Of a stretch of DNA of 64,000 nt, positions 36,739 through 44,461 are shown in pieces. The stretch comes from Methanoculleus receptaculi. GTDB lineage: Archaea; Halobacteriota; Methanomicrobia; Methanomicrobiales; Methanoculleaceae. The position numbers and the translations under genes are program-made. Numbering within the stretch: the first letter of the stretch is position 1; the number at the start of each line of letters is the position of its first letter. The stretch lies in the NCBI RefSeq assembly GCF_033472595.1, contig NZ_CP137642.1, positions 1,845,384-1,909,383 on the forward strand, read 5' to 3'. A model generated the notes under the pieces. That model was not told the DNA's origin. It saw only the letters and a list, made by a program, of their open reading frames with translations, and made no database searches.

Positions 36739-37929
36739 TCAGGTGGAGATTAGCCCTGCTTCCCTGTGTTTCCTCTCGATCTCATCGGCAAGCCGGTCGA
36801 GCGCGGCAAAATCCTCCGCGGTCGGGTAACCCCTGATATAGACCGGTTCCAGAACCTCAACCTTGAGTCGGTCAAGCATCCCTTTTATGGTATCAACCGT
36901 CTTCCCACCCCAGCCATAGGAGCCGATCACCGTGGCGTAGCGCGTCTTCGGGCGGAGCAGGTTTGCAAGGTATGCCGCATACACCACCTGCGGGTGTGGG
37001 CCGAAGATGACCGTCGGCGCCCCTATCACGATCGTTGCGGCGTCCACGAGTGCTTTTGCGAGATCGCCTGTATCGGTCTTTGTGAGGTTGAACGGCTGAA
37101 CCGGGATACCCCGGTTTATCAGGGCGTCAAGAAGATGGTCGACCATGGCCTGCGTGCTCCCGTGCATGGAGACGTAGGGGAGCACCACCATGTTCTTCAC
37201 GGCATCGCCCGTCCAGTCCCTGTAAGCATCGATTATGAACGCCGGTCTCCTGTGAACGGGGCCGTGGCTCGGTGCAATGATCTCTATCTCGCGCGTCGCG
37301 AGTTTCTCAAGGTGCCCCCTGATGCTCGCCCGGAACGGCATCATGATCTCGGCGTAATACCGTTTTGCAGCCTCGTAGACCGCGCACTCGTCAGGGACGT
37401 AGAGCGAACTTGTCGCGTAGTGCGAACCGAAGAGGTCACAGGGGAATAGGACGCGATCCTCCACGAGATAGGTCAGCATCGTCTCCGGCCAGTGGACCCA
37501 GGGAGCAATGATGAACTCCAGTGTCTTACCGCCCAGGTCAAGGGTGCCGCCGTCGTCGATGACTATGAACCTCTCTTCCGGGAGATGCAGGAGAGCGGCC
37601 AGGAGGTCGCGGCACTTCTGGTTTGTCACAACCTTCGCGTCAGCGAACTTCTCAAGCACTGCCGGTATAGATCCTGAGTGGTCCTGCTCGGCGTGGCTGG
37701 CGATGAGATAGTCTATCTTATCGACACCAAGACTCTCCAGGTTCGCGATGAGTTCACTGGTCTTTGTCGGGTCGACGGTATCGATCAGCGCCGTCTTCTC
37801 GCTGCCCCGCACCAGGTAACTGTTGTAGGTGGTACCGTTGGGGAGCGGGATAAGTTCATCAAAGAGTCGGCGGTCCCAGTCGATTGCGCCGACGGCAAAG
37901 ACGCCCGACACAATCTCACGCGCGGCCAT
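36739..37929 (-). CDS. Flavodiiron protein (FprA paralogue 2)
   Basis: 396 residues. The beta-lactamase-like domain has H79-x-E81-x-D83-H84 (SHAEQDHSG) and later APWVHWPETM, DLFGSHY and APSHGPVH. The C-terminal flavodoxin domain starts near NMVVLPYVSMHGST. It should reduce O2, or possibly NO, with F420H2 or rubredoxin as donor. Its N-terminus (ELIPLPNGTTYNSYLVRGSEKTALIDT) differs from the paralogue at 3.9 kb and is closer to the general A-type flavoproteins of anaerobes. GGAGGTGAT lies 7 nt before the ATG at 37929, an almost full anti-SD match. A rubredoxin gene lies 1 kb away. Confidence 0.92.
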   Translation of the reverse strand: MAAREIVSGVFAVGAIDWDRRLFDELIPLPNGTTYNSYLVRGSEKTALIDTVDPTKTSELIANLESLGVDKIDYLIASHAEQDHSGSIPAVLEKFADAKVVTNQKCRDLLAALLHLPEERFIVIDDGGTLDLGGKTLEFIIAPWVHWPETMLTYLVEDRVLFPCDLFGSHYATSSLYVPDECAVYEAAKRYYAEIMMPFRASIRGHLEKLATREIEIIAPSHGPVHRRPAFIIDAYRDWTGDAVKNMVVLPYVSMHGSTQAMVDHLLDALINRGIPVQPFNLTKTDTGDLAKALVDAATIVIGAPTVIFGPHPQVVYAAYLANLLRPKTRYATVIGSYGWGGKTVDTIKGMLDRLKVEVLEPVYIRGYPTAEDFAALDRLADEIERKHREAGLIST

Positions 37930-38903: not shown

Positions 38904-38944
38904 TGGAGGAGGTTACGGCCCGGAGAGTCACTCTCGGAGCGTGG

Positions 38945-39145
38945 ATGATAATGGCACGATGGGCATGCAGTGTCTGTGATTACGAGTATGTCGAGGAGGC
39001 GGGGGACCCGGCCACCGGGATACCGCCGGGAACGCTTTTCGAGGATCTTCCCGACGACTGGCGGTGTCCCCGTTGCAGCGCGGGAAAGGAGGCGTTTGTG
39101 CGGGCGAGCGAAGAGGAGGAGATGAATGAAGAAGACTACCCCTGA
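38945..39145 (+). CDS. Rubredoxin
   Basis: 66-residue small iron protein. The four iron-ligating cysteines are in CSVC (residues about 8-11) and CPRC, with the typical [31 protein letters not shown] between them. The C-terminal acidic tail ([14 protein letters not shown]) is longer than usual. The start is ATG 38945 ([11 protein letters not shown]) by spacing from GGAG; ATG 38951 is also possible. It overlaps the first codons of the decayed TPP gene by 20 nt. It could donate electrons to the flavodiiron protein at 36.7 kb. Confidence 0.93.
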
Positions 39146-39964
39146 AGGGGGCGCCGTGACCGTGGCTGATGTGCTGGTCTCGGAACTCGCGGCCTGGGGG
39201 ATCACCCTCTACTTCGGTATCCCCGGCTCATCGTCGCTCCCGCTCGTGGACGCGGTCAGGAAGTACCCGGACGCACGCTACATCGTCGTCCGGCACGAGC
39301 AGACTGCGGCGCTGGCCGCCTCGGCCTACAACAAGTTCACGGGGAAGATCGCCGTCTGCCTGACCATCGCCGGCCGCGGGGCGACGAACCTCGCCACCGG
39401 TTTGTATGACGCGAAAGAGGATCGGGCGAGTGTGCTTGCGCTCTCCGGGCAGGCGCAGGCGCAGTACACCGGCCCCGGCGGCATCCAGGAGATCGACCAG
39501 GATGCGTTCTTCCGTCCCATCGCGGTCTTCAACAACACCGTCGCGATCCGTCGACGGCGGTCAAACTCCTGACCCGGGCGCTCCGGTACGCGATCTTCGG
39601 CCGCGGCGTCGCCCAGCTCTCCGTCCCGAACGACATACAGGCCGAACCGCTTGAACCTGCCTACTGCGAACGCGAGACCTGCCTCTCGCCGGTCATGGCG
39701 GTCAGGTACGATCTCCCCATCGTCGTCGTGATCATGAGCAACCACAAACTTGCCATGATCCGGGAGGAGCAGCGGGAGGCGAACTACCCTCCCTACGGCA
39801 TCGACCTTACGAATCCGGATTTCGCTGCGTATGCGGAGTCCTGCGGCGGTGCCGGGATACGGGTGGCCCGCCCGCAGGATCTCGCGGATGCCGTTCTCCG
39901 GGCGGTGCGGATGAATAAGCCGGTCGTCATTGATATCGAGACCGACCCGAAACGGTTCGAGTGA
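39126..39964 (+). pseudogene. Decayed TPP-dependent enzyme (acetolactate synthase/pyruvate oxidase family)
   Basis: The N-terminal part is a thiamine-pyrophosphate PYR domain (VADVLVSELAAWGITLYFGIPGSS, VVRHEQTAALAASAYNKFTGK, GPGGIQEIDQDAFFRP). Near 39545 the frame shifts: DPSTAVKLLTRALRYAIFGRG and AQLSVPNDIQAEPLEP continue in another frame. At about 39692 CLSP runs straight into MAVRYDLPIVVVIMSNHKLAMIREEQ, which normally lies some 250-300 residues later in the catalytic PP domain. The central domain and the TPP-binding GDG motif are therefore gone. Full-length relatives have about 540 residues; about 280 codons remain here. It cannot make an active enzyme. Confidence 0.85.
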
Positions 39965-40532: not shown

Positions 40533-41276
40533 TCATCCGCCGCAGAGGTAATCGTAGAGGAACGCGGCGAGCACCGCACCGACGATGGGGCCGATGATGT
40601 AGATCGGGAAGAACTCCCAGAGGTTCTGACCGGCAAGCAGCCAGTCCCCGAGGTAGGGGCCGAACGTACGGGCGGGGTTTATCGATGCGCCGGTCAGGTT
40701 CCCGATCGTCGTGATGATGCCCGCGACCGCGAGACCCACCACAAGCCCGGCAAAGCCCGGCGAGGCCCGCTCGTCGACGGCGGCGCCCATGATGACAAGC
40801 ATCAAAAGGAACGTCCCGACTGCTTCGATGACGATTGCCTGCAGGTAGCCGATGCCGGGGAACGGTGTCGTCGCCCCGAGGCCCCCGATGGTTACGGCAT
40901 CCGGGCCGACGGTCCAGGCAAAGAGCAGGCTTGCTGCCGCGGCGCCGACGAGTTGCGCGGCGATGTACGGGACGACGTCGCGGCCGGGGAGCCGGCGTGT
41001 CGCAAAGAGGGCTATTGTCACTGCCGGGTTGATGTGGCAGCCCGATATTCGCCCGAAGGCGTAGATCGACCCGCCGACGGCGATGCCGAAGGCGAGCCCT
41101 ATGGCGAGCCAGTCGCCGAGCCCCCCGAGCGCCCCGATCCCTATGTTGAAGGAGGTCGCCGGGGTCGTCCCCGCGGCGAGCATCAGTGTGACGATCGCGG
41201 CGCCGGTTCCAAAGAAGACCAGGATGAACGTCCCGACGGCCTCGGCGACGCATCGTTTTCCAAGAGATGTAGTCAT
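40533..41276 (-). CDS. aqpM: Aquaporin AqpM-type channel
   Basis: 247-residue MIP-family channel with six membrane helices. The two half-helix NPA boxes are both intact: GCHINPAVTIALF and GASINPARTFGPY. GRISGCHINPAV and the loop pattern resemble methanogen AqpM, which passes water, glycerol and perhaps CO2 or H2S. A TATA-like TCATTAAAAAGG at about 41303-41314 on the minus strand and GGTGA before the ATG suggest its own promoter, although DUF2180-DUF2193 lie directly upstream on the same strand (69-nt gap containing a GCCC-T6-GGGC hairpin). Confidence 0.94.
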   Translation of the reverse strand: MTTSLGKRCVAEAVGTFILVFFGTGAAIVTLMLAAGTTPATSFNIGIGALGGLGDWLAIGLAFGIAVGGSIYAFGRISGCHINPAVTIALFATRRLPGRDVVPYIAAQLVGAAAASLLFAWTVGPDAVTIGGLGATTPFPGIGYLQAIVIEAVGTFLLMLVIMGAAVDERASPGFAGLVVGLAVAGIITTIGNLTGASINPARTFGPYLGDWLLAGQNLWEFFPIYIIGPIVGAVLAAFLYDYLCGG

Positions 41277-41319
41277 GGTTTCACCAGATAGGCAAGATAC
41301 TCCTTTTTAATGAACCTTA

Positions 41320-41338
41320 GCCCAAAAAAGGGCCTGGA
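41320..41338 (-). terminator. Hairpin GCCC-T6-GGGC between DUF2180 and aqpM
   Basis: The minus strand reads GGCCCTTTTTTGGGCT. The T-run sits in the loop rather than after the stem, so it may be a weak terminator or simply part of the aqpM upstream region. Confidence 0.3.
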
Positions 41339-41345
41339 TGTGTTG

Positions 41346-41555
41346 TTATTTCCCATACAGGGAGTTGTAACACGCGGGACAGAGGATCCGCGGCAGCGGA
41401 GCCTTCACGCGCTTGCTGGGGAGCGGGTAACCGCCCTCCCAGACGTCGACGTCCTTTCTGATCGCGTGCTCCATGCAGAGCCCCATCCCACAGACGATGC
41501 AGATCGCCACCGCCTCGCTATCCTTCCCCTCAAGGGCGCAGTAGTAGCACTTCAT
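41346..41555 (-). CDS. DUF2180 small zinc-ribbon-like protein
   Basis: 69 residues with six cysteines in three pairs: MKCYYC at the N-terminus, CIVCGMGLCMEH in the middle and LCPACYNSL near the end. This is the layout of DUF2180, a small methanogen family. The cysteine spacing suggests one or two structural zinc sites (B-box or double zinc-ribbon-like). GGGGAG lies 6 nt before the ATG at 41555, and the gap to the DUF2193 stop is 12 nt, so both are co-transcribed. Function unknown; the partner relationship with DUF2193 is inferred from position. Confidence 0.85.
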   Translation of the reverse strand: MKCYYCALEGKDSEAVAICIVCGMGLCMEHAIRKDVDVWEGGYPLPSKRVKAPLPRILCPACYNSLYGK

Positions 41556-41567
41556 GACTACTCCCCC

Positions 41568-43067
41568 TCAGATCGCCTCTTTCCACTGGCAGTAATGCTG
41601 CCTCTGGTCGACAAGGCTCGTCGTGGCGCAGCTCTTGCATGCCCGCACCGGAGCGGCGGCCGTCGCCTTCTCCAGAGCTATGATGTTCGTCATCATCGTC
41701 GCGGTCACGGGTTCGCTCGTCAGGAGGCACGGGTAGTCGGCGAGGCGCATCAGGGCGGAGAACCGGACGGTTATGGCGCAGGCCGGGTAGGCGTACCATT
41801 GCGGGTTCATCAGCACCTCGTTTGCGTGGATGGGCGAGAGGTCGACGGGATACTTGCCGACCGTCGGGGTCAGGGGCTCGTCGGCGCCGTTCCGGTTCTT
41901 CCGCGCTTTGTCGATGAGTTTCCACCCGCGGTAGATCATGTCCATGAAGTCGCAGTTGTGGAGTTCCGCCGCCGCTCCCCGGGCCGGGTAGGCGAGGACG
42001 TAGTTGTGGAACCTCTTTGTGAGGAGGTCGACGACCATGGGAGCGTTGAGCGCGTCGAGTTCGAGGATGTACTCGGTAGCGGCGGCGGACGCGCCGGTTG
42101 CGACCGAGAGGACGTCCCAGTAACTCTTGTAGGCGTCAAGCGAGTTTCGTAGCGACGACTCCATCACCCCGGTGACCGCCTCGATGATCGCCATGACGAC
42201 GTCGTCCTTGCACATGTTGAAGGTCGACTGCGCGATGTGGTGCGCGACGTCGCCGACGCTGTAGGCGGGCACCGTCAGGATGTTCGCGTAGTGGACGCCG
42301 TCGTCGACGGCGGCGCGAACCGTCGGCTCCATCCGCCGCCGGTACTCGCTCATGTACTTCCGCGCATCAAAGGACGTCATTCCCGCCGCATCCATCAGTT
42401 CCACCTGGGCCTCGATCGGCTCGCGGTAGATCTTTTGCATGATCTCGACCTCTTTCGCCGTCGCCTCGCCGGGGGTGGCGCCCTCCTCGAGGGCATGGGC
42501 GAAGGTGTCCCCGAACCCGTAGGAAGTGTTCATTCCCCACGATTTGGCGGCGAGGATCGCCCGCTTGTGTTCGACCGGTATATCGGCCTTCTGGAGCACC
42601 CGGTTCACCACGTTGCTCGTGCTGCCCGGGATCAGCGCGAAGTCGACGACGCAGGTGGGCCCATAGAACCCGCCGTAGCGCCGCACCGCTTCAAGGCCGA
42701 TCCTGGCCTCCGCGTCCGCGACCGCCTCCGTGAAGGCGTCGACGCTCTTTTCGAACGCCTCGTCCTGGCTTTTGAGGATCTCGAGCACCACGGGTGTCTG
42801 GTAATGCTCGACGAAGGGATCGTCTTCGGGGCGGACGGTCGTCGTGAGGCTTTGCAGGACCTCGGCATGCGAGACGACCGAGTTTTTGTGCAGGTCGATG
42901 ACCGCCCGGCTCTGGTCGCCTATCGCCGTCATCTTCCGGACGGCATCGACGTAGGGTTTCGTGTCCGCGAGGACGAACTTCTGGCCGCGTTTTGCCTTTA
43001 TCGTCTCCACGTCCGCCCACTGGGCGGTCATGGCCTCGTTGATCATCTTCTCGTAGAGTTCTCTCAT
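41568..43067 (-). CDS. DUF2193 family protein of unknown function
   Basis: 499 residues, soluble, mostly helical, matching the methanogen family DUF2193 as I recall it. Landmarks are GGFYGPTCVVDFALIPGSTSNVVNRVLQ at about 137-164, AAKSWGMNTSYGFGDTFAHALEEG, VPAYSVGDVAHHIAQSTFNMCKDDVV, and a C-terminal cysteine cluster CKSCATTSLVDQRQHYCQW that could bind a metal. No membrane segment or known catalytic motif is seen. AGGTGAT 6 nt before ATG 43067 fixes the start; a GTG at 43076 is the alternative. Co-directional with DUF2180 and aqpM. A leader of about 200-250 nt is predicted upstream. Confidence 0.85.
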   Translation of the reverse strand: MRELYEKMINEAMTAQWADVETIKAKRGQKFVLADTKPYVDAVRKMTAIGDQSRAVIDLHKNSVVSHAEVLQSLTTTVRPEDDPFVEHYQTPVVLEILKSQDEAFEKSVDAFTEAVADAEARIGLEAVRRYGGFYGPTCVVDFALIPGSTSNVVNRVLQKADIPVEHKRAILAAKSWGMNTSYGFGDTFAHALEEGATPGEATAKEVEIMQKIYREPIEAQVELMDAAGMTSFDARKYMSEYRRRMEPTVRAAVDDGVHYANILTVPAYSVGDVAHHIAQSTFNMCKDDVVMAIIEAVTGVMESSLRNSLDAYKSYWDVLSVATGASAAATEYILELDALNAPMVVDLLTKRFHNYVLAYPARGAAAELHNCDFMDMIYRGWKLIDKARKNRNGADEPLTPTVGKYPVDLSPIHANEVLMNPQWYAYPACAITVRFSALMRLADYPCLLTSEPVTATMMTNIIALEKATAAAPVRACKSCATTSLVDQRQHYCQWKEAI

Positions 43068-43459
43068 ATCAATCACCTGTATGGTTCCTGCTGCCCGGTT
43101 CTTCGGACAGCATGTTCGAGAAAGCGATTCTTACGGCGGTCCCTGCTGGGCCTCCTGATCTGGCGGAGCTACTCTGAGTGATGGAGGATGCGGACGGTAT
43201 GGCAGTGTGGCCCCAAGAAGGGGGTCCGGAGAGCTGGAAGGACGGTGATCGGGGATACGGTACCTGTTTTCCGGCTCGTGCACCCTCTATACTGCCTTTA
43301 GATCCCGATATAGGGTTTTCAATCTGCCTGATGGGCCGTCCTTGCATATATCTCTTACGCCGTCCGCCGGCCCCTGTATCCGGGAAAAAAGAAGGTTTTT
43401 TTAGCCCGCCGGTAGACTTAAACCGGCTCTTTGCCTTCGGACGCTCACCGTTTCAGCGG
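43068..43459. other. Gene-free region with likely long leader of DUF2193 mRNA
   Basis: On the minus strand, TATA-like GAGATATATGCAAG (43341-43354) and GCAGTATAGAG (43285-43295) are the only promoter-like elements. They predict transcription starts near 43322 or 43265, hence a leader of roughly 200-250 nt. No ORF is supported. The left end also lies just downstream of fen. Confidence 0.45.
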
Positions 43460-44461
43460 TCAGAACCAGGCGTCCAGCGTCTTCTGCGTTGCCTTCACCG
43501 AGACCCTGGTGAGAGCGCTCCTGACCCGTTCCTCGGAGAAGTCATAGCGACCGCAGAGCATCTCAACAACACCCTCGATATCAGGGGCGCTCCACTCAAG
43601 GGTGTAGTCATCGGTGACCGGCGGGTTGAGGAAAAAGTCCGTGATTTGAGCAGGGTTGAAATCGGGCTGCTTCTCGGCTATAACCGACTCAAACTCCCCT
43701 TTTTGAACAATTTTCAGGGCTTTTTTGGCACCTATGCCACGGACCCCGGGGTTGAAGTCCGTTCCTGCCAGGATGCCGATCTCGATGAGCTGCTCCCTGG
43801 TGAGACCCAGGCGGTTGAGGAGGGATGAGAGGACTATCCTCTCGGGGTTAACCGTGACCATCCGTCCCCTGACCCTCCGCCTACCGCTTACCGTGAGGTT
43901 GCGCACCAGCACAGGAGCGCCAAAGAGGAGCGAGTCGTAGTCCTGGGACACCACGTAGGCGGCGCTTCCCTTCCGTACCATCCAGGCCGCCTGCGCCTCA
44001 CCCTCGCTCGGCGCCTCAAGCCAGGGGATGCCGAGCAGGTCGAGAAGTTCACGTGAAGACTCAAGTATATGTGCATCGATACGGGCGGAGGCGCTTGCCT
44101 GACGGTAGGCCTCCTCCAGATCACCCTCCTGGAGCGCCATCTTCCAGGCTTCATCAGCCATCGCCCGGTGTTTCCGCCGTTCGTTGATCGTCTCCTGTTT
44201 TAACTCCGGCGGCTTCCCATCGAAGACAAAGACCGGCCGGATACCCTTCTCCAGGAAGTTGGCCGTCCGGAACAGGATCCCGGAGAGGTGCGATGTTACC
44301 CTACCCTTACCGTTCATAAGCGGCGTCCCGTCTGGCTGGCGGATTATGGAGAGGAACTGGTAGAGCGCGTTATGAGCGTCCACTGCGGCTATGCCGGATA
44401 GGTCATCCCACGACACCGGTTCCCTGCAATCCACCAGGATATCACGGATAGCAACGCCCAT
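43460..44461 (-). CDS. fen: Flap endonuclease 1
   Basis: 333 residues, the usual archaeal length. The XPG-N domain contains [25 protein letters not shown] and [14 protein letters not shown]; the XPG-I domain has [33 protein letters not shown], with the clustered acidic metal ligands, and a helix-hairpin-helix follows ([23 protein letters not shown]). The last eight residues QKTLDAWF are a PIP box that docks to PCNA. It removes 5' flaps in Okazaki fragment maturation and repair. Confidence 0.96.

Follow-up and report, generated by a model that had tools for sequence, protein, structure and literature searches.

The glpF-glpK operon is a channel-plus-enzyme operon. The three-gene locus of Methanoculleus receptaculi described here, which encodes a DUF2193 protein, a DUF2180 protein and the aquaporin AqpM, may work like it, in that a MIP channel has as its neighbour a cytosolic protein whose substrate may be the solute. 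Unlike the enzyme of glpF-glpK, DUF2193 is no kinase and its fold has no match, and a protein with zinc ligands is usually encoded between DUF2193 and AqpM.

AqpM has been studied as a channel in its own right. Structures of the Methanothermobacter marburgensis (2EVU/2F2B) and Archaeoglobus fulgidus (3NE2) proteins have been solved, and water conduction has been shown in proteoliposomes (PMC3287591, PMC6912568). CO2 and H2S have been suggested as further solutes, H2S has been argued against, and the natural cargo is left open in this literature. Both structurally defined channels are orthologues of the one studied here (66–72% identity, same F-I-R filter), but the AqpM papers mention neither DUF2193-DUF2180 partners nor a gene unit. 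A study on AqpM and a high-pressure methanogen held no relevant expression result.

The Methanococcus voltae protein Mvol_0354, a member of the same family as our DUF2193, is more abundant on FeS2, where a desulfoferrodoxin group is also raised (PMC9431491); this increase, the one expression result retrieved for DUF2193, fits redox or iron stress. The authors of that work propose that the C-terminal motif CX2C...[H/C]X2C ligates a labile Fe-S cluster, and mention neither DUF2180 nor AqpM (PMC9431491). Judged by gene order, DUF2180 genes stand at the start of MA4664/MA3734-3743, a putative oxidative-stress operon of M. acetivorans that is reported not to be bound by MsvR (PMC3729527). There, in contrast to the locus studied here, DUF2180 is present in tandem, and DUF2193 and aquaporin genes are lacking. 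Genes of a second DUF2193 clade, DUF2193b, come immediately after MtrH or end an mtr-mer-AOR cluster, in the company of the tetrahydromethanopterin C1 enzymes MtrH and Mtr-Mer. DUF2193 itself differs from these enzymes: no Pfam or NCBIfam match to a methyltransferase or corrinoid family was found, and its all-alpha model has no fold match in the PDB, so that we rejected its identity as an MtrH-type or corrinoid methyltransferase.

Could DUF2193, DUF2180 and AqpM constitute one system, and if so, what might it do? In the freely available papers searched, we found no description of the triad and no function assigned to either DUF family; DUF2193 is named in one of them and DUF2180 in none. That the two families have no assigned function had been stated in the original prediction, which was made from the DNA alone.

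Gene order in the window and in other archaea

The window is the whole 64,000-nt stretch of DNA that was analysed (Methanoculleus receptaculi GCF_033472595.1, NZ_CP137642.1, positions 1,845,384-1,909,383 of the forward strand); its features are collected in Table 1. A 499-residue protein, followed after 12 nt by a 69-residue protein and then by a same-strand aquaporin, had been proposed for this locus, and coordinates and profiles confirm the arrangement. The length of the small protein was read correctly; its cysteines, taken to be six, number seven and are joined by an invariant His.

Table 1. Features of the triad and its surroundings, in window coordinates
Feature	Position	Strand	Remarks
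DUF2193 (PF09959)	41568..43067	(-)	499 aa; predicted soluble all-alpha, C-terminal CX2C...C tail
DUF2193-DUF2180 gap	41556..41567		12 nt
DUF2180 (PF09947)	41346..41555	(-)	69 aa, seven Cys + His30; two zinc sites predicted
DUF2180-aqpM gap	41277..41345	(-)	69 nt with T6 run on coding strand (read from sequence)
aqpM aquaporin (MIP channel, PF00230)	40533..41276	(-)	247 aa; filter F-I-A-R
Hairpin 5' of DUF2193 start	43089..43112	(-)	9-bp stem, 6-nt loop; subset of Methanoculleus
fen-1	43460..44461		flanks the triad
Decayed TPP-enzyme gene	39126..39964	(+)	flanks the triad on the other side
Rubredoxin gene	38933..39145	(+)	<5 kb from triad
FprA-type flavodiiron gene	36739..37929	(-)	<5 kb from triad

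The DUF2193 reading frame begins with an ATG that has AGGTGA 5' of it, and an in-frame GTG at 43076 gives an alternative of 502 aa. PF09959 covers the whole length of the protein (875.5 bits, cut-off 25; residues 6-502 on profile positions 2-498), PF09947 matches DUF2180 in full length (126.1 bits, cut-off 22.2), and the aquaporin scores 167 bits with PF00230 and 189.7 with TIGR00861 (cut-off 171.25). The genome has one copy of DUF2193, whose closest named relatives are from Methanoculleus (94-97% identity). With a DUF2180-aqpM gap of this length, and with its T6 run, aqpM is probably part of the same transcript here; transcription could be interrupted or restarted in the gap. A search of the locus against Rfam gave no match, nor did a scan with a sigma-70 promoter model, which is uninformative for archaea. 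The decayed flanking gene lacks its central domain, and its N-terminal (148 aa) and C-terminal (89 aa) TPP domains lie in two different ORFs. Flavodiiron genes, one of which lies near the triad in the window, also occur near solo DUF2180 genes in relatives (L146-L149).

A survey of 199 genomes of the window's class retrieved a DUF2193 match in 128. DUF2180 lies directly 3' of DUF2193, on the same strand and at a distance of 2-74 nt (median 18), for 118 of the 125 DUF2193 genes of the class. Likewise, the aquaporin starts 5-88 nt after DUF2180 (median 23) in 128 of the 150 aquaporin-family genes listed for the class. The remaining 22 are located elsewhere, and many of them look like a different MIP type, given their shorter profile match. 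In a scan of GTDB, nearly all of 80 named loci keep DUF2193, DUF2180 and AqpM in that order. Carriers include Methanoculleus, Methanocalculus, Methanocorpusculum, Methanospirillum, Methanofollis, Methanolinea, Methanogenium, Methanothrix, Methanobacteriaceae and Archaeoglobus/Geoglobus. The arrangement is far beyond chance. Linkage of the two DUF families, and of both to the aquaporin, is therefore borne out at the level of genes, and the contrary outcome, a lack of conserved linkage, is excluded by the class counts and the GTDB loci. By spacing and strand the genes form a putative single operon, and we consider a joint function of the three genes highly probable. The description as a methanogen system, on the other hand, did not survive: the triad is intact in Archaeoglobus and Geoglobus, and McrA is absent from five of the six Archaeoglobaceae carriers tested, which rules out an MCR-restricted system.

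The members also separate. DUF2193 is followed by AqpM without an intervening DUF2180 in loci of Methanosarcinaceae, family f14 and Methanobrevibacter, and it has neither partner at two Methanoregula loci (L251, L254) and in one Methanosarcina-like genome (L156). About ten genomes have DUF2180-AqpM without DUF2193, some of them with persisting DUF2193 remnants (G043, G070, G071), and in six relatives that belong to the window's family only DUF2180 is present at the syntenic site. These partial loci rule out that the triad members are obligate partners; DUF2180 and DUF2193 are each found without the other, and so are no metallochaperone-target pair that always occurs together. Since DUF2180 is retained without DUF2193, both in the DUF2180-AqpM genomes and at solo loci, it is not simply a chaperone for DUF2193. 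Of the earlier suggestion that DUF2180 is a metal-binding partner or chaperone of DUF2193, the gene linkage stands, while a role as metal chaperone or obligate partner is weakened. For the further suggestion that the channel may deliver a small solute, the support likewise lies in gene linkage. In a Methanothrix MAG, the DUF2193 gene (L220:5748-7244) contains an in-frame stop codon, for which decay or an assembly error is possible.

Conserved residues and predicted structures

The window's DUF2193 ends in CKSCATTSLVDQRQHYC. Its C-terminal cysteine cluster had been noticed before, and the three residues concerned, Cys480, Cys483 and Cys496, proved to be invariant. Most DUF2193 proteins have a fourth His or Cys three residues before the last Cys, which is absent from some Methanoculleus (RQRYC). 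The His/Cys form of this motif does not track the presence of DUF2180, as L162 has the His form without DUF2180. Among the residues invariant across both DUF2193 subfamilies are H70, E90, E129, D145, H279, H280, E371, H373, D376, D379, C450 and C480/C483/C496; such His, Asp, Glu and Cys residues suggest a metal site, as in a metalloenzyme. AlphaFold yields an all-alpha model whose confidence is good overall (pLDDT 83, pTM 0.88). Neither sequence and profile searches against the PDB nor a Foldseek comparison of the model with the PDB returned anything significant, and DUF2193 looks like an unmatched all-alpha fold. This predicted fold would be conserved in methanogens, other MCR-bearing archaea and sulfate-reducing Archaeoglobi.

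DUF2180 carries C3, C6, C19, C22, C27, C59 and C62 together with His30, all eight invariant in 55 homologues, in the pattern CX2C-X12-CX2C-X4-CX2H-X28-CX2C. From these four pairs of ligands we predict two zinc sites with a structural role; eight invariant ligands would match two saturated sites of this kind better than a metal donor. The model has a pLDDT of 93. Sequence and profile searches against the PDB gave no match and Foldseek no significant fold match.

The window's aquaporin is an AqpM orthologue, with matches to 3NE2 (E=1e-106, 72% identity) and 2EVU/2F2B (E=4e-102, 66%). It has the MIP profile, both NPA motifs and the F-I-x-R signature of the AqpM type, here as F-I-A-R. Filter residues F62, I187 and R202 are invariant in all 79 sequences compared. 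At two Archaeoglobus loci (L202:3759-4430, L206:7773-8444), the aqpM slot is occupied by a MIP that has diverged to 51-53% identity with the solved AqpMs and has the same filter, as would be expected were a channel of this kind necessary to the unit.

Paralogues, their neighbours and regulation

DUF2193b (35-40% identity) forms a clade of its own with full tree support (100/100). It lies immediately 3' of a gene of the MtrH family; the two overlap by 4 bp in L166 (L166:7174-9461), and L167-L172 have a similar arrangement. In two MCR-bearing genomes from different families, DUF2193b closes an mtrEDCBA..H-mer-AOR cluster (L173:493-9485, L174:7944-17339), whose Mer and MtrH were identified by NCBIfam and whose AOR was identified by Pfam. 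The MtrH-DUF2193b pairs of L166-L172 belong to Archaeoglobi and have no full mtr cluster at those loci.

In each of the eight Methanosarcinaceae genera sampled, tandem DUF2180 genes adjoin a gene of the AhpD/CMD family; in nearly all, a multihaem cytochrome is beside them too, and mer is divergent from them in seven of the eight (four of these mer genes were checked with NCBIfam, at 554-590 bits). In Methanosarcina, the cluster continues with genes for desulfoferrodoxin, FMN reductase, rubrerythrin and FprA; that of M. acetivorans corresponds to the MA4664/MA3734-3743 operon introduced above. A row of CMD, ferritin/rubrerythrin-like, McrC-like, two DUF2180 and 2-oxoacid:ferredoxin oxidoreductase-like genes is seen in the MCR-bearing family f36 (L143:6432-10526, L145:6405-10524), the oxidoreductase-like and ferritin-like names being given from reading the sequence.

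In 18 Archaeoglobi-type loci, a gene for an HTH_10 (Bat-type) regulator lies directly upstream of DUF2193 (e.g. L124:7242-7877), divergent in 13 and on the same strand in five. Upstream of DUF2193, many of these loci contain palindromic sites that resemble GGTGGACATGTCCACC, most of them around -76 and -110. Genome scans with the Archaeoglobi palindrome retrieved other sites barely in excess of a reversed-pattern control, and no shared gene set that would indicate a function; regulator and palindromes therefore look like a local switch. No homologue of the regulator was found in the window's genome. The hairpin upstream of DUF2193 in a subset of Methanoculleus shows weak covariation (RNAalifold on nine sequences, two pairs with compensatory change), and may be a leader or operator element.

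Candidate functions of the triad

How might these three proteins act together? Our preferred, if tentative, explanation is that of a channel combined with an enzyme: AqpM would allow a small uncharged compound to cross the membrane, and DUF2193, a soluble and probably metal-dependent all-alpha enzyme, would act on that compound in the cytosol. This activity would be tied to the chemistry of C1 units carried on tetrahydromethanopterin, or to shielding such units from oxidants. For DUF2180 we envisage a rigid adaptor with two zinc ions, either coupling the partners or sensing the redox state of thiols; the three genes would form one functional unit, an ancestral operon. The observations on which we build are gene order and its conservation, family membership, invariant residues, the conserved channel filter and the neighbours of the paralogues. 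Order and tight spacing are kept across many families, the filter persists even where a divergent MIP has taken the aqpM slot, and a dedicated regulator adjoins the unit in Archaeoglobi-type loci. The link to C1 or redox chemistry is suggested by DUF2193b behind MtrH or at the end of the mtr-mer-AOR cluster and by tandem DUF2180 opposite mer and near oxidant-defence genes (PMC3729527), and the putative enzymatic activity by the candidate metal site that both DUF2193 clades share. Co-transcription and zinc binding are further predicted parts of this explanation. Against it stand the lack of an enzyme fold or family match and of a PDB relative for the DUF2193 model, the separability of the parts, the demonstrated function of AqpM as a water channel (PMC3287591, PMC6912568), and the failure to find a regulon common to the triad and C1 or stress genes; moreover, the neighbourhoods of paralogues need not reveal the function of the triad copy. 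In a narrower and rather unlikely version, DUF2193 would be a C1 enzyme of a class and fold not described before, metal-dependent and linked to tetrahydromethanopterin. AqpM would be dedicated to it and admit a small neutral C1 compound (methanol or formaldehyde, for example), and DUF2193b would do related work with MtrH or Mtr-Mer.

The same neighbours can be read as a sign of oxidant defence, in which AqpM would conduct H2O2 as a peroxiporin, DUF2180 would act as the redox switch through its Zn-Cys sites, and DUF2193 would protect or repair an oxidant-sensitive C1 enzyme, for instance the Mtr corrinoid protein. The putative oxidative-stress operon of M. acetivorans, the AhpD-like neighbour in every Methanosarcinaceae genus sampled, the flavodiiron and rubredoxin genes close to the window's triad, the joint rise of DUF2193 and the desulfoferrodoxin group in FeS2-grown M. 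voltae (PMC9431491) and the existence of bacterial peroxiporins (PMC6912568) speak for it. We nevertheless regard it as possible but doubtful: outside the window's family the triad is seldom near oxidant genes, other anaerobes have the same defence genes without the triad, and no report of peroxide transport was found in the AqpM papers. The FeS2 response and the three invariant tail cysteines could also indicate that DUF2193 uses its tail to bind or store a labile Fe-S cluster, with a role in iron or sulfur assimilation, along the lines proposed for Mvol_0354 (PMC9431491). This is quite unlikely, as the fourth ligand is missing in some Methanoculleus, most of the invariant positions are in the helical body, well away from the tail, and iron or sulfur assimilation genes do not recur beside the triad. 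The loading of DUF2193 by DUF2180 as metal-binding partner or metallochaperone, along the lines suggested in the original prediction, would account for their tight adjacency and for the eight invariant Cys/His. It appears highly improbable, given that DUF2180 is kept with AqpM after loss or decay of DUF2193, alone, and as tandem copies elsewhere, that DUF2193 seems to work without it in Methanosarcinaceae and Methanobrevibacter, and that its ligands suggest sites already saturated with structural zinc. Finally, AqpM may be a plain water or osmotic channel that has only an old promoter in common with DUF2193-DUF2180, whose function would be separate. Water conduction in proteoliposomes (PMC3287591, PMC6912568), the separable parts and a gap that could hold a promoter in the window agree with this, but the retention of gene order across several archaeal orders, the divergent MIP that fills the aqpM slot and the unlinked position of other MIP types in the class make it unlikely.

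For AqpM, whose structure and water permeability are established, the triad provides the question of its cargo with two concrete partner proteins and with direct tests. The unit is near-universal, includes two orphan families, is attended by a dedicated regulator in Archaeoglobi and is related through a paralogue to Mtr and Mer.
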